Positions 5,567-21,629 of a stretch of DNA of 64,000 nt are shown here, piece after piece. Numbering within the stretch: the first letter of the stretch is position 1; every line of letters starts with the position of its first letter. Origin of the DNA: Planctomycetota bacterium (lineage in GTDB: Bacteria; Planctomycetota; UBA1135; GCA-002686595). The notes under the pieces are model-generated. The model was not told the origin of the DNA and did not search any database. It worked only from the letters and a program-made list of their open reading frames with translations. Made by a program: the position numbers and the translations under genes. The stretch is from NCBI GenBank assembly GCA_029259635.1, contig JAJDEU010000025.1:1-64000 (forward strand), in the 5' to 3' direction.

Positions 5567-5617
5567 CGGGTCGAGCTTATCAGTTCGTGGCGAAGCTGCG
5601 CGCGGACATGGGAGCGC

Positions 5618-6937: not shown

Positions 6938-7893
6938 TAGCGTTCCGCTCCTTCGGTCTCTTCGCCCAACCGCATTCCGGCCTCGAGGCGAGCGCCTCGA
7001 CAAAACTCCGATGCGGCGAGCGCACCCTTACCCTCGCGCTTCACCGTAAGCAATTCGAGCACGCCATCACCTGTTGCGACCCGAAGACCGTCTTGGATTT
7101 CGAGGATCTCGCCGGGTATCGGCTTTCCTCCGACTGTTTTTGACACCCGCGCATTCAGCACGAGCAAATTCTTTCCGTTCGGCAATCCGGTTCGCGCCAG
7201 CGGCCAAGGGTTCATCGCGCGGATCTGATTCCGAATCTCCTCCGCGCTTCTCGCCCAATCGATCAGCCCGTCGGCGACCGAGAGCTTCGTGCAGCTGGTG
7301 ACTTTCGACTCGTCCTGCGGTGTAAAGATCGCGGTGCCGTCCGCGATTCTTTCAAGAGCGGAAGCCGCCGCGTCCCCCGCGATCACCATCAGTCGCTCGG
7401 CCAATTCACCGGCCGTCTCGTTCTCGCCGAGCTCGGTTTCTTCGGCGAGCAGCACGTCCCCCGCGTCCAGCGTCTGCACGACACGCTGGAGACTGACTCC
7501 GGTCACTCGATCACCGGCGGCCACCGCGGCCTGAATCGGCGACGCGCCGCGAAAGCGCGGCAAGAGCGAGGGATGCACGTTCAAGATCTCCTCGGAAGCG
7601 ACTTCGAGGAACTCCGCTTTCAGGTATTCGCCGTAGGCCACGACCAGAATCACCTCGGGCGCGAATTCGCGGAGCTCGGTCATGAACTCCTCGTCGCGCA
7701 CGGTGGTCGGCTGGAGACAGCGAATGTCCTGCTGTTCCGCGAGGGCGGCGAGCGGGCTCTTTTCGATTTGCCGGCGCCGTCCGACCGGGCGATCGGGCGG
7801 TGTCACGACGAGCTGGGGAGCAAGTGAGCGCTCGATCAAACGCGCCAGGACCGGCGTTGCGAAGGGAGGCGATCCTAGAAAACAGAGACGCAT
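6937..7893 (-). CDS. fmt: Methionyl-tRNA formyltransferase
   Basis: The 318-residue protein formylates initiator Met-tRNA using 10-formyl-tetrahydrofolate. The N-terminal formyltransferase domain shows LGSPPFATPVL and the active-site block NVHPSLLPRFRGASPI. Asn105, His107 and Asp143 (in QTLDAGD) line up with the catalytic Asn106, His108 and Asp144 of the E. coli enzyme. The C-terminal tRNA-binding domain (about residues 205-318) is present, and length is normal. It sits between trxA and rsmB on the minus strand. The usual partner def (peptide deformylase) is not in this window. Confidence 0.93.
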   Translation of the reverse strand: MRLCFLGSPPFATPVLARLIERSLAPQLVVTPPDRPVGRRRQIEKSPLAALAEQQDIRCLQPTTVRDEEFMTELREFAPEVILVVAYGEYLKAEFLEVASEEILNVHPSLLPRFRGASPIQAAVAAGDRVTGVSLQRVVQTLDAGDVLLAEETELGENETAGELAERLMVIAGDAAASALERIADGTAIFTPQDESKVTSCTKLSVADGLIDWARSAEEIRNQIRAMNPWPLARTGLPNGKNLLVLNARVSKTVGGKPIPGEILEIQDGLRVATGDGVLELLTVKREGKGALAASEFCRGARLEAGMRLGEETEGAER

Positions 7894-7983
7894 GCGGGAG
7901 ACGTTCTGTTTCGGGCGTGAGCGACTTCGAAGGGAGCATTCGGCGCGGCGCCGGTTGAGGGCGCTCGCGCGGGAAGGCTTCGC

Positions 7984-8307
7984 CTACAGGAAGGGCTCGA
8001 CTTCCGTCTTGAGGTCGGCGTAAGAGCGCTGACCGACGATTTGCTTGGCGACTTCGCCGTCCTTGATGACGAGGAAGGTCGGGATGGCGGTGATGCCATA
8101 GCGAGCGGGCACTTCCGGGTTGTCCTGCGTGTTGATCTTGACGACCTTCAGCTTGCCCTCGAGGTCTTCGGCGAGCTTGTCCACGAACGGACCCATCGCG
8201 CGGCAAGGGGCACACCACTCCGCCCAGAAATCGACGAGGACGGGAACTTCACTCTTCAGGACGACCGATTCCCAGAGATTGTCGGTGACTTCAGCTGCTG
8301 TGCTCAT
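7984..8307 (-). CDS. trxA: Thioredoxin
   Basis: The 107-residue protein is a complete single-domain thioredoxin. The redox centre reads WCAPC (Trp31, Cys32, Cys35) rather than the commoner WCGPC, and the cis-proline follows in TAIPTFLV (Pro76). There is no signal peptide, so it acts in the cytoplasm. WCAPC is found in many bacterial thioredoxins and is not a sign of loss of function. It lies 90 bp before fmt in the same orientation, and its upstream side faces the structured gap at 8308-8694. Confidence 0.93.
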   Translation of the reverse strand: MSTAAEVTDNLWESVVLKSEVPVLVDFWAEWCAPCRAMGPFVDKLAEDLEGKLKVVKINTQDNPEVPARYGITAIPTFLVIKDGEVAKQIVGQRSYADLKTEVEPFL

Positions 8308-8694
8308 GGCGTGGTCATTGCCCTGTGAGGGCCGAAAGTGGTTGAGGGTGTGGCTTCGAAGAGGGAACCGAACGTTGGGCTCCCTCGCGGGGGGTCGGGC
8401 AATATGGGTCCGGAGTCGGTTCCCGTCTAGCAGCCCTTGGCAAAAGTCGCGAGGCAGAGGGACTGCTGGCGCGGAAGGGCCTCTCGGTTGGTCTCAGTTC
8501 CCCGATGCGGCCTCGGAGTCGACCCTCGCAGCGGTTTAGAACTGACTGGGTTCCGTGTGGAATCCGAATCTCGAAGTTGGCTAGAGCACTGAGCTTGGAT
8601 GACTTCTGAACTCAGCGAGGCCCTCCGGACCGGATTTCACTCCTATCACGGGTGCGAGCCGCCACTTACGCCGAGCGTTCCACACGGAACCCAG
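8308..8694. other. Gap between scpA and trxA, rich in repeats
   Basis: No gene is supported in these 387 bases. They hold a short copy of the CTAGCAGCCC-type repeat (8427-8448) and most of a 163-bp element with 24-bp inverted ends (8539-8701). The part next to the trxA start should hold its promoter, though I cannot point to clear -35 and -10 boxes. Confidence 0.6.
8427..8448 (-). repeat. Copy C (end only) of the dispersed GGGCTGCTAG repeat
   Basis: Read on the minus strand, this 22-nt block differs by about two bases from the ends of the copies at 51-123 and 11463-11557 (GACTTTTGCCAAGGGCTGCTAG here). The rest of the element is not recognisable, so it is either a bare end or a degraded copy. 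Confidence 0.55.
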
Positions 8695-8701
8695 TCAGTT
8701 C
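8539..8701. repeat. 163-bp element with 24-bp perfect terminal inverted repeats
   Basis: Bases 8539-8562 are the exact reverse complement of 8678-8701, a 24-bp match separated by 115 nt. The right arm overlaps the last codons and stop of scpA (stop at 8695-8697). A smaller inverted pair (CTGAG...CTCAG) lies inside. The size and terminal repeats fit a miniature inverted-repeat element; a large transcriptional hairpin at the end of the scpA transcript is the alternative. I see no obvious target-site duplication. Confidence 0.7.
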
Positions 8702-9573
8702 ACATCGGCTTCGGTTGCTGCGGCCCCGGGAGCAGCCCCGTTCTCGTGGGACTCCTCGTCGTCGGGCTGATCGTCTTCTTCTTCGTCCTCGAAGCCCGCG
8801 TTGGCCACGACCTGGTCGATGTCGAACTCGCGATCAGCTCGCATCGCGATTCCGAGCTCGCCCCCGGTCGGGTCCTGTTCGACGCACAAGACGCCCATCT
8901 TGACCAGCTCGAGCAGCGCGCAGAAGGAACCGACCACGTTCTCGCGATGGTCGCTCCCGTCCTCGCCCATGTCCTCGACGAGTTCCTTCAAGGTCGTCTT
9001 CGGGCGCCGCTTGACGGCATCGACCGTGCGCTCGACGAAGAAGCGCATCGGGCGCCCCTCTTTCACGATGCGGTGCGGGCGGTCGCTGGCGGTCTCGCGC
9101 TGCAAGCGCGAAAAAGTGCTCCACAGATCCCAAACCGTCAGCTCGCCGAGGTCGAAGGTCGGCTGCTCCATGCTCGTCTTGAGCTCGCCCTTGAAGCCGC
9201 GCTCGTGCATGACCTCGCGCTCGGCGCTGCGATCCTCGAGGTTCCCGGCGGCTTCCTTGAAGCGCCGATATTCCATCAGGCGCTGGATCAACTCGTCGCG
9301 CGGATCGAGATCCTCTTCGAGATCGAGCTCGTCCTGGGGCAAGAGCGAACGGCTCTTCAGCGCCATCAGAGTCGCCGACATGACGAGAAAGTCGCCAGCC
9401 AGCTCGATGTCGAGGTCCTCGAGCTGGTGCAGATAGGCGAGGTAACCCTCGATAATCAGCCCGATCTCGATCTCGTGAATCTCGACCTCCTGCTCGCGCA
9501 CAAGGTGCAACAAGAGATCCATCGGACCGTGAAAAACCTGATCGAGCAGAACGGTGTAATCGGTACTTACCAC
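8695..9573 (-). CDS. scpA: Segregation and condensation protein A
   Basis: ScpA is the kleisin that bridges SMC heads and, with ScpB, condenses and segregates the chromosome. The 292-residue protein starts VVSTDYTVLLDQVFHGPMDLLLHLV, the conserved ScpA N-terminus, followed by IHEIEIGLIIEGYL and FLVMSATLMALKSRSLLP. The C-terminal winged-helix region ends in a very acidic tail. The GTG at 9573 overlaps the stop of the upstream protease gene by 7 bases; a longer in-frame reading to 9975 is antisense to normal protease coding and is rejected. The scpB gene usually found alongside is not in the window. The 3' end lies inside the 163-bp inverted-repeat element. Confidence 0.88.
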   Translation of the reverse strand: MVSTDYTVLLDQVFHGPMDLLLHLVREQEVEIHEIEIGLIIEGYLAYLHQLEDLDIELAGDFLVMSATLMALKSRSLLPQDELDLEEDLDPRDELIQRLMEYRRFKEAAGNLEDRSAEREVMHERGFKGELKTSMEQPTFDLGELTVWDLWSTFSRLQRETASDRPHRIVKEGRPMRFFVERTVDAVKRRPKTTLKELVEDMGEDGSDHRENVVGSFCALLELVKMGVLCVEQDPTGGELGIAMRADREFDIDQVVANAGFEDEEEDDQPDDEESHENGAAPGAAATEADVN

Positions 9574-10241
9574 AGGCCACCTAGCGTAACGATGGAATGC
9601 ACCCAGCCGAGCATGGTGTTGACCATGGGGAATAAGATGGCGCGCAACCCATTGAAAGAGAGCAAGAGCACGATGACCAGAATGCCGTATCGCTCGATCT
9701 TCAAATAGGTATGCCGCACGGTCTCGGGCATGAGCCAGGCCAAGACCCGCGAGCCGTCGAGAGGCGGAATCGGAATCAGATTGAACGCGGCCAAGATCAG
9801 ATTGAACTTGACGGCTCCGACCATTACGGCGGGAAGGATCTGATAGCTCTGCCCCGACGAATTCGGATCCATCCCGAATACCGAGACGGAGATTTTGTAG
9901 ATCAGCATGAAGAAGATCGCGAGCAGGAAGTTCGAGAGCGGTCCTGCAAAAGCGACCAGGCTCATATCCCGCCATGGATTGCGCAGCCGGTGGAAAGCGA
10001 CCGGAACGGGCTTGGCGCCTCCGAACAAGAAACCCGTGTTCAGGTAGAACAGCATCAAGGGCAGCAGAATCGTCATGAACAGATCGATGTGAACGATCGG
10101 GTTCAGAGTCATGCGCCCCATGTCCTTAGCGGTCGAATCCCCGCACAGGTTGGCCACCCAGGCGTGCGCGGCCTCGTGGATACCGAGCGAGATCACCAAG
10201 AAGGCGATGAGGAGGGCGATCGAGAGCGGGTCGGAGGGCAT
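9567..10241 (-). CDS. Site-2 protease family (M50) membrane metalloprotease
   Basis: The 224-residue, multi-pass protein carries the zinc motif HEAAH (residues 22-26) in its first membrane segment and the third ligand in NLIPIPPLDGSRV (Asp162). It has no PDZ domain, so it belongs to the small site-2 protease group (YwhC/Rip3-like without CBS) often linked to scpA and tryptophanyl-tRNA synthetase genes in bacteria. It is predicted to cleave within the membrane; its substrate is unknown. Its 3' end overlaps the scpA start, so the two are translated together. The divergent kdsD gene starts about 220 bp upstream. Confidence 0.88.
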   Translation of the reverse strand: MPSDPLSIALLIAFLVISLGIHEAAHAWVANLCGDSTAKDMGRMTLNPIVHIDLFMTILLPLMLFYLNTGFLFGGAKPVPVAFHRLRNPWRDMSLVAFAGPLSNFLLAIFFMLIYKISVSVFGMDPNSSGQSYQILPAVMVGAVKFNLILAAFNLIPIPPLDGSRVLAWLMPETVRHTYLKIERYGILVIVLLLSFNGLRAILFPMVNTMLGWVHSIVTLGGLW

Positions 10242-10458
10242 GGGGTTCGGGGGCCTGAACGCGGCTCTGGCACCAAAATGGCCGATCCACGTAGTCGGGG
10301 GACCCGGGGTTTATAGCACAGCGGAGAGAGCATCCCGAGCCTCGGACCTGTACGGGTACAGTTGGGGAGCCCTTTTTGGAGCCGCCATCCGATCGCGCCT
10401 ACAATCCGCGGCCCACTTTTGCGTTCGAGCGAACGACTCCCCCTACCGAGCCTCCGAC

Positions 10459-11466
10459 TTGTCCACGATCCAGCCCCAGCAGCCGAGCTCAACCGGCTCG
10501 CCCAAGACCTCGCGCCTCGAACGCGCCGCGGAAGTGATCCGCCTCGAAGCGCGCACGATCGCCAACCTCGAAGCGCGACTCGGTCCACCCTTTGAACAAG
10601 CCGTGGACTGGATCCTCGAGTGCGAGGGCATGGTCGTCGTCTCGGGCATGGGCAAAGCCGGAATCATCGGCGCCAAGATCTCCGCGTCGCTGGCCTCGAC
10701 GGGTACCCCCTCGCACTTCCTGCATCCGTCAGAAGCGCTGCACGGCGACCTGGGTCGAATTCGCGCGCAGGACCTCTTGATCGTCATCTCGAACTCGGGC
10801 GAGTCCGCCGAGATCAAGGCATTGATCCCCGCCGCTCGAAAGATCGGCGCGCGCATCGTTGCGATGACCGGCAATACGGAGTCGACCCTCGCGCGACTTT
10901 CAGACTGTGTACTCGACATCGGGCGCATCGACGAGGCCTGCCCGATGGGCCTCGCGCCGACCGCCAGCACCTCCGCGATGCTCGCGCTGGGCGACGCGCT
11001 CGCGATGGTTGTCTTGGACGAGCGCGGCTTCTCGCGCGAGGACTACGCGCGCTATCACCCGGCCGGGGCGCTCGGCCGCAAGCTCATGCGCGTCGGCGAG
11101 ATCATGCGCAAGGGCGACGAGCTCCCGCTCGTGCGCGAAGAAGATTCGCTGAGCGATGTCTTGCTCACGACCAGCCGCACCCCCGGAAAACCCGGCGCAG
11201 CGCTTGTGATCGACGCGGACGGAAAGCTGTGCGGCATTTTCACCGATGGCGACCTGCGCAGGCTCTTGGAGTCGGGACGGTTGCCGGACGGCCCGGTCCG
11301 TGACTTCATGGGCACCGATCCCAAGTTCGTCTCGCCCGATCATCTGGTCGATGAAGCCGAGCGCGTCCTGCACAAGTTTCGCATCGACCAGATCCCCGTC
11401 CTCGACGACGACCGCCGCCCAGTTGGCCTGCTCGACGTTCAGGATGTGCTGGACGTTCGGATCTAG
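10459..11466 (+). CDS. kdsD: D-arabinose-5-phosphate isomerase (KdsD/KpsF type)
   Basis: This enzyme converts ribulose 5-phosphate to arabinose 5-phosphate, the first step to Kdo for lipid A core. The SIS domain (about residues 50-180) contains VVSGMGKAGIIGAKISASL, HPSEALHGDLG and ISNSGESAEI. Two CBS domains fill the C-terminus (IMRKGDELPLV... and FMGTDPKFVSPD...). No ATG suits the domain boundary; the TTG at 10459 gives 335 residues, close to the usual 328. The frame stays open to 10111, but that part is antisense to the protease gene. The stop codon lies inside the left end of a palindromic repeat. kdsC follows 7 kb downstream. Confidence 0.88.
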   Translation: MSTIQPQQPSSTGSPKTSRLERAAEVIRLEARTIANLEARLGPPFEQAVDWILECEGMVVVSGMGKAGIIGAKISASLASTGTPSHFLHPSEALHGDLGRIRAQDLLIVISNSGESAEIKALIPAARKIGARIVAMTGNTESTLARLSDCVLDIGRIDEACPMGLAPTASTSAMLALGDALAMVVLDERGFSREDYARYHPAGALGRKLMRVGEIMRKGDELPLVREEDSLSDVLLTTSRTPGKPGAALVIDADGKLCGIFTDGDLRRLLESGRLPDGPVRDFMGTDPKFVSPDHLVDEAERVLHKFRIDQIPVLDDDRRPVGLLDVQDVLDVRI

Positions 11467-11648: not shown

Positions 11649-14441
11649 ATGAAGCTCAAGCTCGAGCCCGTTAAAGAGACGAGCATGCGAACCGGAATTG
11701 CTGTTCTGGTTGTCGGAATCCTGATCGGACTCCTGCTGCAAAACGTTCTCACCTCCGGCGTTTTCGACGCGATTGAAGGCGCGCGCCCCATCAGTGCGCC
11801 GCTGCACCTCGAGTCTTACCTGCGCTCCACCTCGGCGAAAGAGAAACAAAGCGCGATCGCGGCAGAGGACAACGGTCTCAAGACGCTCGTCATCGACTTC
11901 GATGTCTCGCAAGCGATAAAGCTCCAGAAGGTCCGGGATGAGTCGCTGAATCGCGGGATCATCATCCAAACCGAAGAGGACATGATCAAAGGAACGGTCG
12001 CTCTTGGAGACGAGGAAGGCAAAGCCGATCTGCGCATCAAAGGCGACTGGACGGATCACATCGACTCGAACAAGTGGTCACTTCGGATCAAGCTGAAGAA
12101 CACGAAGATCGACGGGATGGCTGTCTTCTCTATTCAGCACCCGAAGACGCGCGGCATGTTGTGGGAGTGGTTGGCTCTGCGGACTGCTCGCTTCGAAAAG
12201 CTCCTCGCCCCGCGCTCTACCTTCGTCAATGTCGTGCTCAACGGAAATCCGATGGGCATCTACTACCTGGAGGAGCACTTCAGCAAAGAGCTGCTTGAGT
12301 CGCAGGGTCGCAGAGAGGGCCCGATCGTCTTGTGGGATGAGAGCACGCGCTGGTCGACGCTCTTGCAGGCTCATTTTCTCACCACGAAGGGTGTTTCCCT
12401 TCCGGTGCCGCAGAGCGCGAAGAGAATTTGGGGACCCAACTCCGCCCCGATCCGCGCCTACGGCGAAAAGCGTCTCAGCTCCATCGAATCTCTCCGCCGA
12501 TCGCTCTACAGCGGCGTCGAACAAATGGCGCGGTTGCAGGACTTCATCATCGCCGATTCGCCAAAGGAGGAGACCCTCGCGCGGCTCTCGGCCATCGCCC
12601 GAATCGAGGGCGAAACCGTCGAGAACCTGGTCAACACGAAGCAACTCTCGCGCATGCACGCGCTCGCGTCCTTGTTCCAAATTGAGCACGCGACGATTTG
12701 GCACAACATGCGCTACTACCACGATCCGGTTCTCGACCGACTGGAACCGATTCTATTCGACTGCAACGCCGACCATCCGTCGGCGCGTGACATCGTCATC
12801 TTCCGCAAGACCGATGTGACCTCGCAGTTCAATAAGAGCAATGCGTATTACAACGGGGTCTTTAGTGCCCTCGGAGAAATGTGCGACGCGAACTACCTCT
12901 CCGGCCTGATGGCGGAGATCGGCGAGGAGCTCGATCTCTATGAGCGCGCTCTCGGTTCGGAGTTCGAACTCAAGAGCACGGAGACCGTCGCCGGGATGCT
13001 GCAACGTCTGCGGACCGAACAGACCTTCTTGCGAACCCAAATTGACCCGGTTGACCCCGTCAATTTTCGCGCGGCCTATTCCGTCGTAGAAGAGCCCGAA
13101 TCCGGCGCGATTTCGACAACCTTGACCGTCGATGCGTGGACCACCACTCGAACGCCGCTGGTCATTGAAGGCTTTGAGTACAGCAACGGAATCGTGACTC
13201 CCGCTCTCGGCGCCGTTGTCGATAGCCCCGACATCTACAGTCAGACGCCCGACGGCGGAGTCGTCTTGCCGAATGACGGCAGGATTCTGCGGTTCAGTTT
13301 CCCGATGAATGACCGCATCGCGAACCTCTCGAATGTCGGGCAAATCCTCGACGCCGAGCGCACAAAGAGCGAGCGCGGCGCGCTCGACTTAGATGTCTCC
13401 GTCGTCTTCCGTCCCATCGCCGTAAGCGACGTCACGCGGGAACCCTTGAGATTTCGCCCGGAGGATCCGCGCTGGAGAGTGGAAGCGGGAAGGCCCACGC
13501 CGCCCACACTGCAAGAGGCGCTCGACCGACATCCCTATCTGGAGTATCGCGTCGAGACCGACGAGCTGTGGGTGCGCTCGGGTTCCTGGGATGTCACGGG
13601 TGACCTCGTCATTCCGAGCGGGATACCTCTGCACGCTTCGGGAGCTCGGCTCCGCTTCGAGGAACAAGCCGTTCTGCTGAGCGACGCGCCGCTCTTCTTT
13701 CGCAACACAACGCTTCAACCGCAGAAAGCGTTCGATCGTTGGCGCGGAGTTATCGTCTTGCAGGCTGGAAGTCGTTCGGTCTGGGAGAACGTGACGGTGA
13801 AAGCCACCGACTCCATCTCGCGCGCGGGCTGGACGGTTACCGGTGGCATCACCTTCTATCGCTCGCCCGTGACCATGAGCGATTGCCACATCGATGGCAC
13901 ATGGGCCGAGGACGGGACCAACATCTTCGGCGCCGACTTCCTCATGGAGCGCACGCGGTTTACGAAGTGCGTTTCGGATTCCTTTGACGGCGACTTCGTA
14001 ACCGGCGGCTTGCGCAATTGTGTTTTTGAAGATGGTCTTGCGGACGGCGTCGACGTCAGTGGAAGCGACATCTTCGTCGAGGATTGCCAGTTCCTCAACA
14101 TGGGTGACAAGGGCATCTCCGCCGGTGAGAACAGCATTGTTCGCGTGAAGGGTGGGCTCTGCGACGGCATCTCACTCGGTATCGCTGCGAAGGATAAGTC
14201 GCAGGTGACGGCAACCGGCATGACGATTCGGAACGCGAAGAACTATGCGCTCACAGCCTTCATCAAGAAGGCCGAGTTCGGCGCCGCTCATATGGTTGCG
14301 AATGATATGGAGATCGAGGGTTCGGGCCTCGGGGATTACTTGGTTCAGACGAGCTGCACATTGGAGATCGACGGGGTTTCCATACCGACGGAAGACCTCG
14401 ACGTGAAGAAGCTCTACGAAGACAAAGTGCTGGGACAATGA
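11649..14441 (+). CDS. CotH-kinase-like protein with C-terminal right-handed beta-helix
   Basis: The protein has a single N-terminal membrane segment (about residues 15-32, GIAVLVVGILIGLLLQNVL), so the rest is outside the cytoplasm or membrane-tethered. The region around residues 120-400 resembles CotH: ADLRIKGDWTDHI, WSLRIKLK, RSTFVNVVLNGNPMGIYYLEEHFSKELL and later a DCNADHPS segment that could be the acidic active-site motif. CotH proteins are atypical extracellular protein kinases. Residues from about 640 onward form short repeats typical of a parallel beta-helix. In other bacteria CotH genes cluster with VTC and DUF4956 genes, as here. Kinase activity is inferred from family only. GTG at 11634 is an alternative start. 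Confidence 0.7.
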   Translation: MKLKLEPVKETSMRTGIAVLVVGILIGLLLQNVLTSGVFDAIEGARPISAPLHLESYLRSTSAKEKQSAIAAEDNGLKTLVIDFDVSQAIKLQKVRDESLNRGIIIQTEEDMIKGTVALGDEEGKADLRIKGDWTDHIDSNKWSLRIKLKNTKIDGMAVFSIQHPKTRGMLWEWLALRTARFEKLLAPRSTFVNVVLNGNPMGIYYLEEHFSKELLESQGRREGPIVLWDESTRWSTLLQAHFLTTKGVSLPVPQSAKRIWGPNSAPIRAYGEKRLSSIESLRRSLYSGVEQMARLQDFIIADSPKEETLARLSAIARIEGETVENLVNTKQLSRMHALASLFQIEHATIWHNMRYYHDPVLDRLEPILFDCNADHPSARDIVIFRKTDVTSQFNKSNAYYNGVFSALGEMCDANYLSGLMAEIGEELDLYERALGSEFELKSTETVAGMLQRLRTEQTFLRTQIDPVDPVNFRAAYSVVEEPESGAISTTLTVDAWTTTRTPLVIEGFEYSNGIVTPALGAVVDSPDIYSQTPDGGVVLPNDGRILRFSFPMNDRIANLSNVGQILDAERTKSERGALDLDVSVVFRPIAVSDVTREPLRFRPEDPRWRVEAGRPTPPTLQEALDRHPYLEYRVETDELWVRSGSWDVTGDLVIPSGIPLHASGARLRFEEQAVLLSDAPLFFRNTTLQPQKAFDRWRGVIVLQAGSRSVWENVTVKATDSISRAGWTVTGGITFYRSPVTMSDCHIDGTWAEDGTNIFGADFLMERTRFTKCVSDSFDGDFVTGGLRNCVFEDGLADGVDVSGSDIFVEDCQFLNMGDKGISAGENSIVRVKGGLCDGISLGIAAKDKSQVTATGMTIRNAKNYALTAFIKKAEFGAAHMVANDMEIEGSGLGDYLVQTSCTLEIDGVSIPTEDLDVKKLYEDKVLGQ

Positions 14442-14496
14442 GCGCCGTGTTCTTGCGATTAGCCCACCTCCACCGGTCGTCAAAGCGAGTTAGCGC

Positions 14497-15576
14497 GTGA
14501 ATAGGGTCATGACTTTCGGCTTGAGCTGCCTGGTTCTGCTCAGCTTGGTTGCCGCCGGCCAAAAGCTCACGAGAGCCAGCGATCAGATCTTCACGACCGA
14601 ACCGCTCTCGATTCTGGTCGGTAGTCACGGCCACATGCTGCCGATTGCCACCATGGAAGGCAGCGCCGATCGCTTTGACGATGCCATCGCGATCGGAGAC
14701 TTGCTCCTCACGCATCCCCGCGCCGGTGATGGATTGCGGGTCGCCATGCTCAAACCGGGCTTGGAACTCGACTCGTTCAACACCTACAAATCGGCAACGG
14801 ATCCGGATGCGAGCCTCAAACTCAAACTGAGGCTTTCACTCTTGCCGGTCGGTTCCGTCGTCATCGCGGCAGTGCACGGTTACGTACATCCACCGGACGA
14901 GAAGCTCGAAGGCCTGGACGATTTTCCGCTGACCCTTGGGGCGGAACTCACGCCCTTTCGCGCGACGGCGGCGAGTTGGGCGATTATCAGTTACAAGCTC
15001 GATTCGGGTTGGCGAACGATCGCCGAAGCCTATTCGGAGAGCCGGGGCGTCCATCTCGCCTTTACGTTGAGCCCCGATCCGAGCGTCTACGAACATCACC
15101 ACAGCGAGGTCTTCTTCAGCGAGAGCGAAGGTGTTCGAGTCGTTGAGTTTTTCGCCAGTTTTCGATCAGCCGCAAGCAAGACGAGGGACGTCGTGCAGAG
15201 CAAGTGGGCCGCCGTCGGCGGAGTCAAGGCTCCCTCGCTGCTCGTGCGGCCGAGCCCCGACGAGAGCTCGGTTATCCGGTGGGAACACGTGACGATCGGT
15301 CCGAACGCGGTCTTCCAGGCCAAGCTCAGCCAGAAGAGCGCGCCGAGACCCAACCAGGGGCTCCCCAAGTTTTCCGTCATCGTCGACGGAGAAGAGGTCG
15401 GAAGCTTTTCGCCAAGCGGTGCCATTCATCGATCTTGGTCGGATTGGTCCTTCCCGCTAGACAACCTCGAAAGTGGAACCGTCGATATTGAGTTTCGCAC
15501 GGACCTGGCGAACGAAGGGCTGGCAACGTCCTTCCTGTGGGGCAATCCGACCATCGAGTGGGGCGGCGATTCATGA
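14497..15576 (+). CDS. Secreted protein with an ILEI/FAM3-like domain
   Basis: A signal peptide (FGLSCLVLLSLVAAGQ, cleavage near residue 20-28) starts this 359-residue protein. Residues about 35-200 read like the ILEI/FAM3 fold: SILVGSHGHMLPIA, DGLRVAMLKPGLELDSFNTY, then a strand ending VVIAAVHGYVHP, LTLGAE, and RATAASWAIISYKLDSGW. That domain occurs in FAM3 cytokines and in the stem of POMGNT1, where it binds sugar. The C-terminal 130 residues look like a beta-sandwich. I infer a carbohydrate-binding exported protein. It lies 55 bp after the CotH gene and overlaps the next gene by 4 bp (ATGA), so the three are one operon. The domain call is from pattern memory. Confidence 0.5.
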   Translation: MNRVMTFGLSCLVLLSLVAAGQKLTRASDQIFTTEPLSILVGSHGHMLPIATMEGSADRFDDAIAIGDLLLTHPRAGDGLRVAMLKPGLELDSFNTYKSATDPDASLKLKLRLSLLPVGSVVIAAVHGYVHPPDEKLEGLDDFPLTLGAELTPFRATAASWAIISYKLDSGWRTIAEAYSESRGVHLAFTLSPDPSVYEHHHSEVFFSESEGVRVVEFFASFRSAASKTRDVVQSKWAAVGGVKAPSLLVRPSPDESSVIRWEHVTIGPNAVFQAKLSQKSAPRPNQGLPKFSVIVDGEEVGSFSPSGAIHRSWSDWSFPLDNLESGTVDIEFRTDLANEGLATSFLWGNPTIEWGGDS

Positions 15577-16556
15577 AAGCAACTCGCGCCGCTCTGGTCA
15601 TTGGGTTGTTCGTCGCTGGACTCTCGATGCGGCAAGAAGACCAGCTGAGCGGCATTGAAATCGGGAAGGTACCGCCCACGATTCTCAACGACCGCGAGTT
15701 CAACCCCTCCCCCGAAGCTTCGGCTTACTCCTTCATTGTCGGAGGCCATCTGTACGGATCACCGAAGAACAAAGAGTCGATCTATCCCTCCTCATCGATT
15801 CTGGCCAATCTGCCCAACCTCAATGACCGGAAGCCCGCCTTTTTCATCAGCCTTGGCGATGCGGTCATGCGCGCCATACCCAATCACTTTGAAGCATTGC
15901 GCTTCGGCTTCCTGAGCCAGCTTGAAGCGCCGTTCATGAACGCGGTCGGCAATCACGACGTCGCCAACCGAAAGGCCTATCACCGAGCATTTCCCGGTTC
16001 GACGGTGTTCCAGTTCACCCACGGTCGAGTGCTCCATATCGTGATCGATACCGAACTCGAGCTGGGACGAATCTCGGGCAGCCAACTCACTTGGCTTCTC
16101 AATGCCCTTGATTCAGCAATGTACTCGCCGTCGATTCGCTCGGTTGTCGTGTATGGACACAAACTTCTCTGGGTCACGGGTAGCGAGAAATACGACATCG
16201 TCCAGAAGCGGCTCAACAATCGCGACGGCTATCAAGACGACCGGGTCTTTCACGACCAAGTCGGTCCAACCCTGTTTGAGCTTGCCAAAAAGAAGCAAGT
16301 GGTCTGGTTCGGCGGCGATATCGGTTGCTCGCATAGCCTTCCGCTGTTTTCCCAAAAGGAAGAGGGAATGAACCTCACGTGGGTGGCGACCGGCATCGGC
16401 GACACGCCCGACGACGCCCTCATCGAAGTAGAGGTGAGTGCGAGCGGAGATCTAGAGCTCGATGTCCTTCGGTTGGACGGTCGCCCCAGCGCGCCGCTTG
16501 AGACCTTTGACTCGGGCTACTGGATCGACTACTTCAAAAAGAAGAAGAAGAACTAA
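15573..16556 (+). CDS. Exported calcineurin-like metallophosphoesterase
   Basis: The 327-residue protein starts with a hydrophobic segment (RAALVIGLFVAGLSM), which could be a signal peptide or anchor. It then shows the metallophosphoesterase blocks in order: VGGHLYG, FFISLGDAVM, FMNAVGNHDVANR, VVVYGHKLLW and VWFGGDIGCSH. GNHD and the GH and GGD-x-x-x-SH blocks bind the two metals. The usual first D-x-H motif is reduced to GGHLYG, so one metal ligand may differ. The tail is a run of lysines (KKKKKN). It overlaps the ILEI-like gene by 4 bp and ends 13 bp from the convergent polyphosphate polymerase gene. A role in removing phosphate added or polymerised by its neighbours is a guess from context. 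Confidence 0.72.
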   Translation: MKATRAALVIGLFVAGLSMRQEDQLSGIEIGKVPPTILNDREFNPSPEASAYSFIVGGHLYGSPKNKESIYPSSSILANLPNLNDRKPAFFISLGDAVMRAIPNHFEALRFGFLSQLEAPFMNAVGNHDVANRKAYHRAFPGSTVFQFTHGRVLHIVIDTELELGRISGSQLTWLLNALDSAMYSPSIRSVVVYGHKLLWVTGSEKYDIVQKRLNNRDGYQDDRVFHDQVGPTLFELAKKKQVVWFGGDIGCSHSLPLFSQKEEGMNLTWVATGIGDTPDDALIEVEVSASGDLELDVLRLDGRPSAPLETFDSGYWIDYFKKKKKN

Positions 16557-16569
16557 GCGCGACGCGCAG

Positions 16570-17277
16570 CTAGATCGACAATTGCGACGCCAGCGCGCCG
16601 TCATTCGGGCTTGAGGCGTAGACGAACTTCGAGCAGCGGTCGATTCGCATCGGAAAGTCATCCATCAAGTCTTTGAGCGCGTCGTAGTCGCCCTCCGCAC
16701 ACTTGGCTTCGACGATCATGACGTCGGGCGTCGGCGCCCGGAATTTGGAGGAGAGCTGAGGGCGATTGCGCTGATCCCAGGTCCGCAAATTCCGATCGAT
16801 CGTAATTCGGATCGGCCCCTTACCGGCCTCCGTCGCGAAATACTCCCGGTCATATCGAATCCACTGAACCGGTTGAAGGTTGCGATCGAGCACATCCTCC
16901 CAGCCCTCGCTCAAAAACGGCCGGAGCGAATCGGTAAAGGCTCGGCGCGGCTGCCCTTCGACCGCCAAAGTTGAGTCGATCCTAAGCAGGTCCTTCCAGC
17001 CCAGCATGTTCTCCCGAACTTTGCGCTCCAGCGTCCCTTTGACACCTGTCTTCGCCTCGCCGTACCACCGGAAGCGCACCTTCTCGCGATGGCTGATACC
17101 CGCGAGATTCTCTTCCAGCGCGATGTTTCGCCAGGTATCGAAATAGATGCTCTGAATTCGGCGCGGCGGATACAGCGTGCGTATCGCGCTCCGATCGAAT
17201 CGCATCAGCATCCGAATTCGCGCATAGGCCGCTGCTTGAGCGACCATCTTGATTTCATAGCGCAGTTCGCGGGACAT
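16570..17277 (-). CDS. VTC-domain polyphosphate polymerase
   Basis: The 235-residue protein matches the VTC/triphosphate-tunnel fold. RYEIKM at the start supplies the Glu and Lys of the tunnel; IQSIYFDT, REKVRFRWYG, TLERK, WIRYDREYFA, IRITIDRNL, VMIVEAK and DRCSKFVYAS follow in the family order. Yeast Vtc4 uses these residues to polymerise phosphate from ATP. The bacterial single-domain versions are soluble and usually encoded next to a DUF4956 membrane protein, as here, where the membrane gene ends 16 bp upstream. All the basic and acidic tunnel positions I can identify are kept, so an active enzyme is likely. The start ATG at 17277 is the only good one. Confidence 0.85.
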   Translation of the reverse strand: MSRELRYEIKMVAQAAAYARIRMLMRFDRSAIRTLYPPRRIQSIYFDTWRNIALEENLAGISHREKVRFRWYGEAKTGVKGTLERKVRENMLGWKDLLRIDSTLAVEGQPRRAFTDSLRPFLSEGWEDVLDRNLQPVQWIRYDREYFATEAGKGPIRITIDRNLRTWDQRNRPQLSSKFRAPTPDVMIVEAKCAEGDYDALKDLMDDFPMRIDRCSKFVYASSPNDGALASQLSI

Positions 17278-17293
17278 GAATCGTCGCTCCGAA

Positions 17294-18004
17294 TTAATCG
17301 AGGCTGTCGGCTTCGACGACGCTTGTCGTGGCGTCCGGGAAAGCTCCGCTCAATTCGTCGAGCATCTTTCCGAGACCCGCATCTTCCTTGAGATCGATAA
17401 TCAACGAAGCCTCGAATTCGTCTTTTTGCACGTCGATTCGACGCAAATCCGCTTCGACCGCGTGAGGTCCGACCGAGCTCATGAGAGCTGAGATCACGCT
17501 CTCGCGGCTGTGCGTTCCCAAGGATGCGCCGACGTGAAGCAGGGTTCGCGCACCCTGTGACTTGTCTTTGCCGCGACCAATCGTGGACATGAACAAGAGG
17601 ATGCCGATCATCATGATGGCCGTCGGCCACCTCTGGTCGGCGCCCATTCCCACTCCCAGCGCTACCGCGAGGAACAGATAGGCCAGTTCTTCGGGCTCCT
17701 TGATCGGCGTCCGAAAACGAATGATCGAGAGTGCTCCCACGAGTCCGAGTGACAACGCGAGCGACGTCTTGACGACGGAGATCACGAGCATGGTCGTCGC
17801 CGCGATGAACACCAGAATCGGAGCGAACTTCCGCTTGTTCGAAAGCACGCGAGCAAAGCGCCGGTAGTGGATCGCCAGGAACTGCCCCAGAAGCAAGGAC
17901 AGCGCGAGGTTGAGAAGAGTCGGCCCAATCTCGAGATTCTTGAGGGCGGATGAATCGAAGAAGGAGGTCCAATCCTCAAAAAGCTGGGAAAGCGGCATTT
18001 CCAT
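17294..18004 (-). CDS. DUF4956 membrane protein, partner of the VTC polymerase
   Basis: The 236-residue protein has four likely membrane segments between residues 27 and 145, joined by the family signature LVGALSIIRFRTPIKEPEEL. A soluble alpha/beta domain of about 80 residues follows (HAVEADLRRIDVQKDEFEASLIIDL), ferredoxin-like in pattern. DUF4956 has no proven biochemical role; its link to VTC proteins suggests a membrane channel or anchor for polyphosphate, similar to the membrane parts of the yeast VTC complex. It is first in a two-gene minus-strand operon with the polymerase, and its promoter should lie in the divergent gap at 18005-18306. Confidence 0.85.
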   Translation of the reverse strand: MEMPLSQLFEDWTSFFDSSALKNLEIGPTLLNLALSLLLGQFLAIHYRRFARVLSNKRKFAPILVFIAATTMLVISVVKTSLALSLGLVGALSIIRFRTPIKEPEELAYLFLAVALGVGMGADQRWPTAIMMIGILLFMSTIGRGKDKSQGARTLLHVGASLGTHSRESVISALMSSVGPHAVEADLRRIDVQKDEFEASLIIDLKEDAGLGKMLDELSGAFPDATTSVVEADSLD

Positions 18005-18306: not shown

Positions 18307-18831
18307 ATGGCCCTCGAAGCACAATTTGAGCTGACAAAGCTCCTCGTTTTGGACGTCGATGGCGTTCTGACCGACGGACGAGTTGTGTACGGAGCGGGCG
18401 ATGAACTCCAGTTTTTCGACGTTCAGGACGGGCAGGGCCTCACCTGGCTAAGGAAATCTGGTATCGCCGTTGCATGGATCACTGGGCGCGGCTGTGAAGC
18501 CACGCGGCGCCGAGCGGAAGAGCTGGGTGTTTCCGAGCTTCATATGCGCAGCGGACCGAAAGATGTCGTCCTCGCCGACCTCCAACAGCGGCTAAAAATC
18601 GCCCCCGAGGAAACCGTCGCTATGGGAGACGACCTGCCCGACCTCGCCATGGCGCGGCATGCAGAAGTCTTTGTGGCACCGGCCAACGCTCGCGAACAGG
18701 TCAAGGAGCGCGCGCGGTGGGTCACGTCGGCTTCCGGTGGTCGCGGCGCCGTTCGCGAGGTTTGCGAACGCATCTTGACCGCTCAAAATCTTCTCGACGA
18801 CCTGATTGAGAATTCGAAGCCCTCCTCATGA
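18307..18831 (+). CDS. kdsC: 3-deoxy-D-manno-octulosonate 8-phosphate phosphatase
   Basis: KdsC removes phosphate from Kdo 8-phosphate. The 174-residue protein is a cap-less HAD phosphatase: LLVLDVDGVLTDG gives the nucleophile aspartate, ITGRGCEATRRRAEEL the second motif, GPKDVVL the lysine, and VAMGDDLPDLAM the metal-binding aspartates. The conserved C-terminal GGRGAVREVCE segment that reaches the active site of the neighbouring subunit is present. Its stop overlaps the start of the next gene by 4 bp (ATGA), so Kdo synthesis and LPS export are coupled here. Confidence 0.92.
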   Translation: MALEAQFELTKLLVLDVDGVLTDGRVVYGAGDELQFFDVQDGQGLTWLRKSGIAVAWITGRGCEATRRRAEELGVSELHMRSGPKDVVLADLQQRLKIAPEETVAMGDDLPDLAMARHAEVFVAPANAREQVKERARWVTSASGGRGAVREVCERILTAQNLLDDLIENSKPSS

Positions 18832-21629
18832 AGAAGTTCATGCTCTTCATGCTCCTGTTCATCGCGGGCATCTCCGTCCTGCGGTGGATTCAAAACCCGA
18901 TCCCGGTGGACACGGTTGAAGCGAGCCACGATTCGAGGATTCAGGAACCGGTCGCCCCAGTAGCCTTGAAGGTTCGGTCGGAGACCGAAGCGAGCGCGGT
19001 CGCCGTGGTTCCCGACGAGTCAGAGTCCGGCGACATCGCGGTCAAGGTCTTCGGCGCGGCGGAATACACGAAACGAGTCCTAGAAGGTCCTAACCGCGGC
19101 CGCAAAATCTTTCGCCTCCAAGCCAAGGACAGTCGATCGCTAAGTGACGGTCGACTGGAGCTCATCGATCTTTGGGCGATCGCTTACGACGTTGAGACCG
19201 ACGAAGAGCTCTTGCGCGTGGAGGCGGAGTCCGGATTGGCGGACATTGTCAATCCGCTCGAACACGAGATTGTTTTAAGAGATGTCGAGCTGGTGTTGCT
19301 CCGCAACGCGCCGGTGGTCCCGCTGACCATGCGCACGGAAAACTTGCTCTTCGACCCGAACGACAACCTGCTCCGTACCGAGGATCGTGTTGAGATCCAA
19401 GGCCAGGGACTCACCGCTGCAGGAACGGGATTCGAATTCGCGATCGTGGACGGCATTTTGCGTTTCGAGCGCGAGGGGTTCGCCGAAGTGGAAATCGACT
19501 CCGGTCCCACTTCGACGCTGACTTCGGTCGGCGGTCTCGAGATTCGTCGGACAGAAGGTTCGGAGGGACCGATCACCCTCGATGCGGAAGAAGAGGCGAC
19601 GCTCTCGATCGAGGGGGAGACGCCCATCCTTCTGAAGTCCGACCACTTGCGAATCACCGGGCGCGAGAAGAACAAAGAGAGTGATCTGCTCGGGTTTGAG
19701 AGTGTCGTGGCCGAGGGAGCCGTCACGCTCTCCCTCGGCGGAAATCAATTCTCGGCGGACCGTGCGCAGGTGGAGCTGGTTGAAGATCAGGATAAGTTTC
19801 GCGCGGAGCTGACCGGTTCACCACACGGGCAATTCAGTTTTGTGGGTGGGCTGACGGCGGACAAAGGAATCGAAGACGCGACGAAGCCCTTCAATGTCGA
19901 GTTCAGCGGTCGTGGGCCTCTCGTCGTCAACCGATCGGAAGAGACGCAGTTCGAGCTAGCCGGACCCGCTCAGCTCAAGTGGTCCGACGCCATCCTGCAA
20001 GCCGAACAAAGAGTCAGCGGGACCTTCGGGCCGACCGTTGACGAAGCCGAATTCACGGCGTTCGGCTCCGTCGAGATTCGGCAGGAGACTCGATTGTTGA
20101 GCACGCCGGAGTTTCGCCTTCGCCACGAGCGCGGCTCCGATCGCGCTAGCCTCCTCACCGCATCCGCCAGCGGTCCGGCCCGCATGTCGGGCGAGGTTGA
20201 TAACGAACACAGCTTCGTGCTGACGACCGACAACCAAATCGACTTCGCTCTCGAGGGAGTGGAGTGGCGCGTCCCGCGCGCGAACGGCATCGCTCTCACT
20301 GTCGAGGGGCCGCGCGGCTTTGTCGCCAAGGCTCGAGAGGTCATCGGGTTCGCACCCGACCCGCTCACCCTCCGGGCAATCGGCGACGTCTCCGTCGTGA
20401 GCTCCTGGGGCAACGTCGAGGGCCACAGCCTCTCCCTGACCGGCCTCGATGCGATGACGATCGACGGTCTTCCCGATCAGCTGGCTCACTTCAAATCCGA
20501 TCGCGGTGAGTGGTTTGCTCTTCACGTGAGACGCCTGGGCAGTTCGATGATTGCGGTCGGTGTCGACCGGGCGATCTTCTCGGACGCCTACGGAACCTAC
20601 GAACTGGGTTGCGGCCGAATGGTCGTCGAGGAGGTCGACGAGCCCGGCTCCGGTGGAGGCACTCTTCGAGATAAGGGTTTTCGGTTCAGCGCGAGCGACT
20701 CCGTCAAGGGTCGCGCGATCTACCCGGGTGATAGTTTCGAGATTGAGAGCGGACGGTTGCGCGGCGAGTGGATTGAGCACATGCGCGACACCCAGCTCCT
20801 CTACTCCGAATCCGTACTCGTCGCACAGGAAGACGTGCACAGCAAGTTCTCTCGCGCCTCCAAGCAGTTCGATCTTCGCTCGGACCTGTTAACTGCGACG
20901 CGCACCAACCGCGGGTCCGAAGTGCTCACTTCGGACGCTCTGGTCGCCGAGGGGAACGTGATCGTCGAAACCGTGAGCGACGCGCGGTTCCACGGAACTG
21001 GCGATCGCTTGGAGATCGACAAATTCGGGCGAGGCGAGCTAATCGCAACCCAAGGCAATCGCATCACGGCGAGTGGCGAGCTGGCGGGCGGCAAGTTCCC
21101 CTTCGCCATGACCTCAGATCGCCTGATCTTTTCCGACACCTTCCTCGACGCTTCCTATCCGGAGATCGAGTTCCTTACGACAGAGCAATCGCCTCAACAT
21201 CCCGAGGGCATCAACACTCGGGCTTCGGCGAAGCGGTTGATCGCGCGCGGAGAGGAAAATTCACCGTCCGGTGAGGTTTCCCTGACCGGCGACGTCCGGA
21301 TGGACGGAGTGGTCGAAAACGGAAACGCTTTTGTTTTGCTCGCCGATGAAGCCCAAATCGGCATACGCTTCGCTGGCGGTGGAGGCCTCCTCGCATCCGT
21401 CTCCGCGTCGGGTCAAGTGGAGTTCGACCTCGAAAACGTGATGCACGCAGAAGGCGACGAATTCCTCGGGAAGAGCGCGCAAAAACGCTTCCGCGTCGCC
21501 GGCAGCCCCGCGAGGGTCTTCTACGGTGAGACCAATATCGAGACGGCTTGGATGGAATACGACCACCTGATCCACGCCATCAGCACCGCTCGGGGCGCTC
21601 TGTTCCTGCCCACTACAAACGACCAATAG
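18828..21629 (+). CDS. Very long LptC/LptA-type lipopolysaccharide transport protein
   Basis: An N-terminal membrane anchor (MLFMLLFIAGISVLRWI) is followed by an extended periplasmic protein of about 900 residues made of beta-strand repeats. Residues 65-210 read like LptC (RKIFRLQAKDSRSLSDGRLELIDLWAIAYD..., then LLFDPNDNLLRTEDRVEI). Later parts contain repeated OstA/LptA-like units (for example the segment SDALVAEGNVIVETVSDARFHGTGDRLEI). LptC is normally about 190 residues and LptA about 180, so this single chain could form a jelly-roll bridge across the periplasm by itself. It lies between kdsC and the LptD-like gene with overlaps on both sides. The domain count needs a profile search. Confidence 0.75.
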   Translation: MKKFMLFMLLFIAGISVLRWIQNPIPVDTVEASHDSRIQEPVAPVALKVRSETEASAVAVVPDESESGDIAVKVFGAAEYTKRVLEGPNRGRKIFRLQAKDSRSLSDGRLELIDLWAIAYDVETDEELLRVEAESGLADIVNPLEHEIVLRDVELVLLRNAPVVPLTMRTENLLFDPNDNLLRTEDRVEIQGQGLTAAGTGFEFAIVDGILRFEREGFAEVEIDSGPTSTLTSVGGLEIRRTEGSEGPITLDAEEEATLSIEGETPILLKSDHLRITGREKNKESDLLGFESVVAEGAVTLSLGGNQFSADRAQVELVEDQDKFRAELTGSPHGQFSFVGGLTADKGIEDATKPFNVEFSGRGPLVVNRSEETQFELAGPAQLKWSDAILQAEQRVSGTFGPTVDEAEFTAFGSVEIRQETRLLSTPEFRLRHERGSDRASLLTASASGPARMSGEVDNEHSFVLTTDNQIDFALEGVEWRVPRANGIALTVEGPRGFVAKAREVIGFAPDPLTLRAIGDVSVVSSWGNVEGHSLSLTGLDAMTIDGLPDQLAHFKSDRGEWFALHVRRLGSSMIAVGVDRAIFSDAYGTYELGCGRMVVEEVDEPGSGGGTLRDKGFRFSASDSVKGRAIYPGDSFEIESGRLRGEWIEHMRDTQLLYSESVLVAQEDVHSKFSRASKQFDLRSDLLTATRTNRGSEVLTSDALVAEGNVIVETVSDARFHGTGDRLEIDKFGRGELIATQGNRITASGELAGGKFPFAMTSDRLIFSDTFLDASYPEIEFLTTEQSPQHPEGINTRASAKRLIARGEENSPSGEVSLTGDVRMDGVVENGNAFVLLADEAQIGIRFAGGGGLLASVSASGQVEFDLENVMHAEGDEFLGKSAQKRFRVAGSPARVFYGETNIETAWMEYDHLIHAISTARGALFLPTTNDQ

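Follow-up and report, generated by a model that had tools for sequence, protein, structure and literature searches.

The window analysed here (64,000 nucleotides of contig JAJDEU010000025.1, from the Planctomycetota draft assembly GCA_029259635.1) carries, between the genes kdsD and kdsC, a cassette of five genes that encode a CotH-like protein fused to a beta-helix, an ILEI-like protein, a calcineurin-like phosphoesterase, a VTC-type polyphosphate polymerase and a DUF4956 membrane protein (Table 1). Comparison across genomes supports the conclusion that these genes form a conserved genetic unit, and we consider it probable that they work together at the cell envelope. A core inherited together, a polymerase site with its residues kept, exported enzymes of phosphate chemistry and glycan-type similarities in the beta-helix and the ILEI-like protein favour an envelope system that would make polyphosphate and use or store it beyond the inner membrane.

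Conservation and placement of the five-gene cassette

A preliminary description of this locus had placed five adjacent genes here, and the open reading frames of the window bear this out in coordinates and strands: the stop codon of the ILEI-like gene overlaps the start of the phosphoesterase gene by 4 bp, and the VTC–DUF4956 pair runs convergently towards them, such that the stop codons of the phosphoesterase and VTC genes lie 13 bp apart. Among the species genomes of the same GTDB family as the source genome (a family that includes Rohdeia mirabilis strain Pla163), VTC is present in 57 of 81, and a search of the surroundings of these matches with iterated profiles found DUF4956 beside VTC almost everywhere. 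A wider scan of GTDB genomes with the CotH/beta-helix alignment returned 78 loci, from Planctomycetota, Acidobacteriota, Chloroflexota, Bacteroidota and others. Core genes in the order DUF4956-CotH-VTC are found repeatedly in these four phyla and in several other lineages. Linkage was counted at the 42 of these 78 loci that have at least 3.5 kb of sequence on each side, where DUF4956 is found at 41, VTC at 40, and a variable partner (an ILEI-like protein, a phosphoesterase or a pyrophosphatase) at 23; phyla in this count were assigned from the titles of the records. Pairwise protein distances are correlated throughout the core (r=0.89 for CotH–VTC, 0.89 for CotH–DUF4956 and 0.92 for VTC–DUF4956), values that arise partly from shared organism phylogeny.

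The preliminary description had linked its proposal to recurrence of the ILEI-like and phosphoesterase genes beside the core in related genomes, an expectation that held when followed up. Genome-wide in the source's family, all 15 strong ILEI-like matches (E<1e-50) adjoin a CotH gene, and all four operon-type phosphoesterases (E<1e-80; next best match 3e-32) lie at CotH loci. Across 19 genomes with the operon phosphoesterase, a sample picked for carrying that gene and thus a gauge of specificity rather than of prevalence, 20 of the 23 family members (E<1e-40) sit at CotH/VTC loci (19 in the operon, plus G083:C150), the other three being orphans in Saprospiraceae. That the ILEI-like and phosphoesterase genes are chance neighbours of the core is extremely improbable: both are accessory and missing at many loci, and calcineurin-like phosphoesterases are common, but the counts given above, which for the phosphoesterases span three phyla, and the joint placement of both genes between kdsD and kdsC argue otherwise, and we rejected a chance neighbourhood on the neighbourhood counts.

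The position of the cassette bears on how it was acquired. In 26 of 29 relatives kdsD is followed immediately by kdsC (the other three gave no kdsC match in the short stretch compared), and the two genes are likewise adjacent in the closest relative (L191, KdsD 73% identical); in the window they are 6.8 kb apart, the gap being filled by the five cassette genes in two convergent units. The simplest account of this split would be arrival of the cassette as a single piece. A simple comparison of the flanks at the kdsD/kdsC insertion found none of the repeats that mark a transposon. Of 392 Planctomycetota sampled, only 13 have the CotH subtype, in keeping with a distribution that is patchy and mobile. 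We also considered a conserved tie of the cassette to the genes of lipopolysaccharide or 3-deoxy-D-manno-octulosonic acid synthesis, and rejected it because relatives have kdsD and kdsC adjacent without the cassette.

Other arrangements of the same families were seen among the loci. At L037 (9542-17660) and its relatives (L033-L042, L045, L051) a planctomycete order runs VTC-DUF4956-TPR-like-SGNH-like-CotH, most of these loci having a phosphoesterase after CotH. Three Chloroflexota loci (L126, L129 and L131) carry two CotH genes per VTC-DUF4956 locus, with differing lengths in L126 and L129. Within the window, none of the five proteins matches an NCBIfam model, an Rfam search near the locus returned no RNA elements, and promoter and terminator scans of the locus gave no clear excess over shuffled sequence.

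Table 1. Features of the cassette and its flanks (positions in the window; residue numbers refer to the protein named)
Feature	Position	Strand	Details and basis
CotH-like/beta-helix protein	11649..14441	+	930 residues; Pfam CotH and Beta_helix, AlphaFold, Foldseek
Predicted N-terminal membrane anchor of CotH/beta-helix protein, residues 13-44	11685..11780	+	Long hydrophobic helix in model; topology inferred
CotH-like domain (about residues 74-470) and right-handed beta-helix (about residues 630-910) of CotH/beta-helix protein			
Codon of H347, position of canonical catalytic Asp (B. subtilis D228)	12687..12689	+	Profile alignments to B. cereus and Alicyclobacillus CotH
Codon of D371, putative metal-binding Asp of PWDxD	12759..12761	+	Invariant in 77 sequences; aligned to both canonical CotH proteins
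Beta-helix segment with invariant charged/polar residues	13908..14270	+	Alignment of relatives
ILEI-like protein, predicted exported	14497..15576	+	359 residues; remote profile match
ILEI domain, about residues 50-169	14644..15003	+	Profile match
Calcineurin-like/purple-acid-phosphatase-like phosphoesterase, predicted exported	15573..16556	+	327 residues; profile and fold
VTC-type polyphosphate polymerase	16570..17277	-	235 residues; Pfam VTC, Vtc4 profile match
DUF4956 membrane protein	17294..18004	-	236 residues; Pfam DUF4956
kdsD/KpsF-like sugar-phosphate isomerase, left neighbour, outside the system	10372..11466	+	SIS and CBS domains
kdsC-like HAD phosphatase, right neighbour, outside the system	18307..18831	+	Domain search and kdsD/kdsC comparison
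LptC-like gene, after kdsC, outside the system	18828-21629		

The polymerase and its membrane partner

The VTC protein matches its Pfam family strongly (PF09359, E=2.4e-25, 89.9 bits against a cut-off of 23), and alignment with yeast Vtc4 (3g3q; E=3.5e-10) places R68, R70 and E190, all invariant in 29 sequences, on R264, R266 and E426, the residues mutated to inactivate the yeast enzyme (PMC9911596). That the protein makes polyphosphate from adenosine triphosphate (ATP) is thus a prediction well supported by sequence. The tunnel fold serves several enzymes, and the literature searched contains no assay of a bacterial VTC protein; one might accordingly picture, by comparison with the other tunnel enzymes, a VTC-like protein that has triphosphates as substrates for hydrolysis or as ligands, in a cluster unrelated to polyphosphate. 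We give this little credence, as the structures matched by the VTC profile are Vtc4, Vtc2 and Vtc3, the equivalents of the three inactivating positions are invariant, and, as in the yeast complex, the enzyme is paired with a membrane protein (PMC9911596). The polyphosphate kinase PPK1 (PF02503) gave no match in the source draft genome (5.5 Mb in 62 contigs, about 90% complete), and is present in 51 of the 81 genomes searched.

The membrane partner matches Pfam DUF4956 (PF16316, E=3.5e-17, 63.1 bits against a cut-off of 30.6), as do 30 of 30 relatives, and contains the conserved segment SLALSLGLVGALSIxRFRxxxKxPEE at about residues 81-106; no match to the family was found on plasmids. In the literature searched no role is assigned to any bacterial VTC protein or to DUF4956, and the papers that name DUF4956 give no function for it. 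In yeast, VTC couples the synthesis of polyphosphate to its transit through a basic channel in the membrane (PMC9911596), and we infer by analogy that DUF4956 may be a polyphosphate channel. The relatives of DUF4956 show similarity to MgtC in 15 of 30 cases (best E=1.7e-4) and to ACT-like domains in two, which, together with the acidic ladder of the beta-helix (see below), would suit a role in cation homeostasis, where VTC polyphosphate and an MgtC-like DUF4956 buffer Mg2+/Ca2+ or metals at the envelope and the other genes tune the process. This too seems improbable, since it leaves unexplained the strict link to a CotH/beta-helix enzyme and an ILEI-like protein, and no metal transporter is found among the recurrent neighbours. 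The source genome has a second DUF4956-VTC pair (L087, G000:C26:92200-112100; likewise L002), with no CotH gene nearby and followed by a membrane-fusion-protein-like gene.

The predicted exported proteins

The CotH/beta-helix protein matches Pfam CotH (E=4.5e-6, 26.8 bits against a cut-off of 23.8) and Beta_helix (E=4.4e-11). Its AlphaFold model (mean predicted local distance difference test score, pLDDT, 91) begins with a long N-terminal hydrophobic helix, by which the protein is predicted to be anchored in the membrane; the CotH-like domain comes next and is itself followed by a right-handed beta-helix. Foldseek matches the CotH part to B. cereus CotH (5jda/5jd9; E=2e-11, with a target-based template modelling score of about 0.7). 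When the CotH domain is used by itself, its profile covers nearly the whole of that protein (E=1.2e-11). In canonical CotH the catalytic Asp stands five residues before a conserved Asn, whereas here the position is held by His347, six residues before the Asn owing to a one-residue insertion; a His is found at this position in 99% of 77 sequences, and also in the other VTC-linked CotH subtypes that were inspected. We assign D371 to the first Asp of PWDxD, a motif whose second Asp is lost in the window protein; the metal Asp of B. subtilis CotH we take to be D251, in keeping with the spacing in the alignment. In B. subtilis CotH, D228 is the catalytic Asp and a D228Q mutant is inactive (PMC7821199), hence with a near-invariant His in its place protein-kinase activity is unsupported here. 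The preliminary description had named loss of kinase or tunnel residues as telling against it; of these the catalytic Asp is indeed lost, and the metal-binding D371 and the three VTC tunnel residues are kept.

Invariant residues are roughly as numerous in the beta-helix as in the kinase-like domain; those of the beta-helix are D755, N758, D777, D780, D782, D799, D802, S804, D820, K821, S824, E827, K848, D849, K873 and K874, with E754 nearly invariant. These include a ladder at approximately one-coil spacing (D755, D777, D799, D820), flanked by N758, D780, D802 and S824 and continued by K848, D849, K873 and K874, which may form a binding or catalytic groove, such that the beta-helix itself may be enzymatic. 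Foldseek matches of this part are headed by a GH87 glucanase (E=8e-6); among the weaker ones are AlgG, which is a periplasmic epimerase, and a capsule lyase. A third CotH-like gene of the source genome (L220, G000:C20:30000-42500, 4393-6936) is solitary, more divergent and located beside a TerC-like membrane gene.

The ILEI-like protein of the window falls below the cut-off of Pfam ILEI (PF15711, E=0.027, 15.4 bits against 27), and a weak match is seen in 6 of 10 relatives (best E=0.0022); the profile of its family matches the stem domain of POMGnT1 over profile positions 50-169 (E=4.3e-5). The gene accompanies one CotH subtype, in orders that include DUF4956-CotH-VTC-ILEI and DUF4956-VTC-CotH-ILEI. 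The source genome holds a second CotH-ILEI pair (L179, G000:C48:183500-199500, 5979-10286), with VTC, DUF4956 and phosphoesterase genes not nearby. At L105 (7359-9872) an 837-residue protein encoded upstream of a CotH-ILEI pair itself resembles the ILEI profile weakly (E=1e-5).

No Pfam match was obtained for the window phosphoesterase itself; 12 of 21 relatives match Metallophos, and purple acid phosphatases are matched by the family profile (E=1.3e-15). A Foldseek comparison of the AlphaFold model (mean pLDDT 85; E=6e-11) gives purple acid phosphatases and Rv0805 as the best PDB matches. Its motif residues are H59 (motif I), D96, N127, H128, H196 and D249 (motif V), and operon-type members in three phyla share two departures from the standard motifs, with the Asp of motif I replaced by His (GH or SH) and GHxH of motif V by GD (GDxG). 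The simplest reading is that the two motifs represent a reciprocal change of metal ligands. Neighbouring metallophosphoesterases that do not belong to the operon (L052, L064, L107, L176) keep the motif I Asp, and L064, L107 and L176 also keep the GH of motif V; an exception is L142 (10055-10948), a weaker family member from a KSB1 genome, whose gene is flanked by DUF4956 and VTC and whose motif I is standard (ADLH).

At nine Bacteroidota loci the partner is instead an inorganic pyrophosphatase (PF00719 in 9/9) with an invariant Cys at a lipobox-like position, encoded directly after the operon in seven and about 2.5 kb downstream in two. Family I pyrophosphatases are as a rule cytosolic, which makes such a protein unusual, and a predicted exported pyrophosphatase in the place of the fourth gene points to phosphoanhydrides or pyrophosphate outside the cytoplasm.

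These features bear on the interpretation offered in the preliminary description, by which CotH would act outside the cytoplasm as a Ser/Thr protein kinase on a surface protein and the phosphoesterase would reverse the modification. The conserved unit and the retained VTC residues stand; the kinase with its eraser does not fare as well. The CotH fold and the phosphorylation of CotB by the B. subtilis spore protein (PMC7821199) speak for such a kinase, but the near-universal His for the catalytic Asp, the lack of a conserved substrate gene among the recurrent neighbours and the glycan acceptor suggested by the beta-helix and ILEI-like similarities all speak against it. The phosphoesterase as an eraser of protein phosphate is likewise disfavoured, with its altered metal-ligand motifs, its absence at many loci and its replacement by an inorganic pyrophosphatase at others. 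Overall we find a protein kinase of this kind improbable.

Proposed function and comparison with known systems

The favoured envelope polyphosphate system can be set out as a chain of steps. The cytosolic VTC-domain enzyme would turn ATP into polyphosphate, the step with good support from sequence, and the polymer would cross the inner membrane with the aid of DUF4956, as in the coupling known from yeast VTC. The CotH/beta-helix protein, predicted to be held in the inner membrane by its anchor and to expose its domains on the outer side, would there encounter polyphosphate, and its altered kinase-like domain and charged beta-helix groove would bind or use it. The glycan-type similarities of the beta-helix and the ILEI-like protein suggest a glycan rather than a protein acceptor, to which the CotH/beta-helix protein would transfer phosphate or polyphosphate, the ILEI-like protein perhaps binding the glycan. 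Finally, the exported phosphoesterase, or the lipoprotein pyrophosphatase of Bacteroidota, would hydrolyse residual pyrophosphate, polyphosphate or product. As a whole, from polyphosphate synthesis through phosphate transfer to an envelope glycan and cleanup, this chain is tentative, possible but short of probable. Its most specific form, in which VTC–DUF4956 exports polyphosphate during synthesis and the CotH/beta-helix protein, with His for Asp, phosphorylates or polyphosphorylates envelope glycans with polyphosphate replacing ATP, we hold to be unlikely as it stands.

The exported enzymes could also serve a periplasmic phosphate store, which VTC–DUF4956 would build up as polyphosphate beyond the inner membrane and from which the phosphoesterase or pyrophosphatase would free inorganic phosphate, while the CotH/beta-helix and ILEI-like proteins would only hold the polymer. 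Such a store would accord with the two exported hydrolases at the same operon position, with the lost catalytic Asp of CotH, with a charged ladder that could hold a polyanion and its cations, and with a source draft genome that has no PPK1 match. However, the CotH domain keeps D371 and many of its polar residues unchanged across 77 sequences, beyond the needs of a scaffold, many relatives carry PPK1 as well, and no phosphate transporter or Pho regulator occurs among the recurrent neighbours; we judge a pure store rather unlikely.

Several observations weigh against an envelope polyphosphate system that involves all of these genes, in addition to the phylogenetic share in the distance correlations. 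All three variable partners are missing at 19 of the 42 loci, which marks them as accessory. Certain CotH-ILEI pairs (those at L107 and L179) lack VTC-DUF4956 in their vicinity, and the VTC-DUF4956 pair at L087 is without CotH. The similarity to ILEI is remote, the fold matches of the beta-helix other than GH87 are weak and such folds are common. To our knowledge MgtC, the closest Pfam relative of DUF4956, is not a polyphosphate channel.

The cassette bears on the phosphate source of extracytoplasmic kinases where ATP is scarce: if the proposal is true, exported polyphosphate as the donor would make up for ATP being absent beyond the inner membrane. The operon is compact, occurs in several phyla and has cultured strains among its carriers, which makes it testable, and concrete handles are offered by the His for Asp in CotH, by the phosphoesterase with its metal-ligand changes and by the pyrophosphatase that takes the same place in the operon.

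Clustering of CotH, VTC and DUF4956 genes had been described as known, and the pel exopolysaccharide loci of Gram-positive bacteria confirm this: there, genes for CotH, a polyphosphate polymerase and DUF4956 (with DUF4832) adjoin the pel genes as accessory genes, and regulation by phosphorylation has been suggested (PMC7112168). The same three core families are thus adjacent in both. In the cassette described here, by contrast, a beta-helix is fused to CotH, an ILEI-like protein, a phosphoesterase or a pyrophosphatase joins the core, DUF4832 was not seen, and the carriers belong to Planctomycetota, Bacteroidota, Chloroflexota and Acidobacteriota; contiguous pelDEADAFG genes were found neither beside the cassette in the window nor among the recurrent neighbours of the 78 loci. 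The NELoc-2 locus of C. perfringens (PMC2879425) also has VTC genes beside CotH, in a Gram-positive host and without treatment of these genes as a system in that work. The NELoc-2 genes annotated as 'tubulin/FtsZ GTPase' beside VTC encode membrane-predicted proteins of 222-226 residues (PMC2879425), and from their size, membrane prediction and position these are probably misnamed DUF4956 genes.

The individual proteins likewise combine familiar and divergent features. With the CotH spore-coat kinase (B. subtilis; B. cereus 5jd9/5jda; PMC7821199) the CotH part shares its fold, the metal Asp and a near-full-length domain alignment, but differs in the His for catalytic Asp with its insertion, the fused beta-helix and the predicted membrane anchor, and the bacteria that carry the cassette are not known as spore formers. 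The ILEI-like protein resembles FAM3/ILEI and the POMGnT1 stem by remote sequence similarity of its N-terminal domain; it differs in being an exported protein of bacteria that has an additional C-terminal region and, in the family examined, is always encoded beside CotH. With purple acid phosphatases, Rv0805 and calcineurin-like phosphoesterases the operon phosphoesterases have in common the fold and motifs II and III, and they differ in motifs I and V. The eukaryotic VTC complex (Vtc1/Vtc3/Vtc4; PMC9911596) shares with the core a tunnel-domain polymerase, equivalent catalytic residues and pairing with a membrane protein, and the coupling of synthesis to translocation, a property of that complex, is proposed for VTC–DUF4956 by analogy. 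The bacterial VTC protein nevertheless consists of the VTC domain only, with no SPX domain, its membrane partner is DUF4956 (MgtC-like by sequence) rather than the Vtc transmembrane region, and extracytoplasmic proteins are encoded alongside it.

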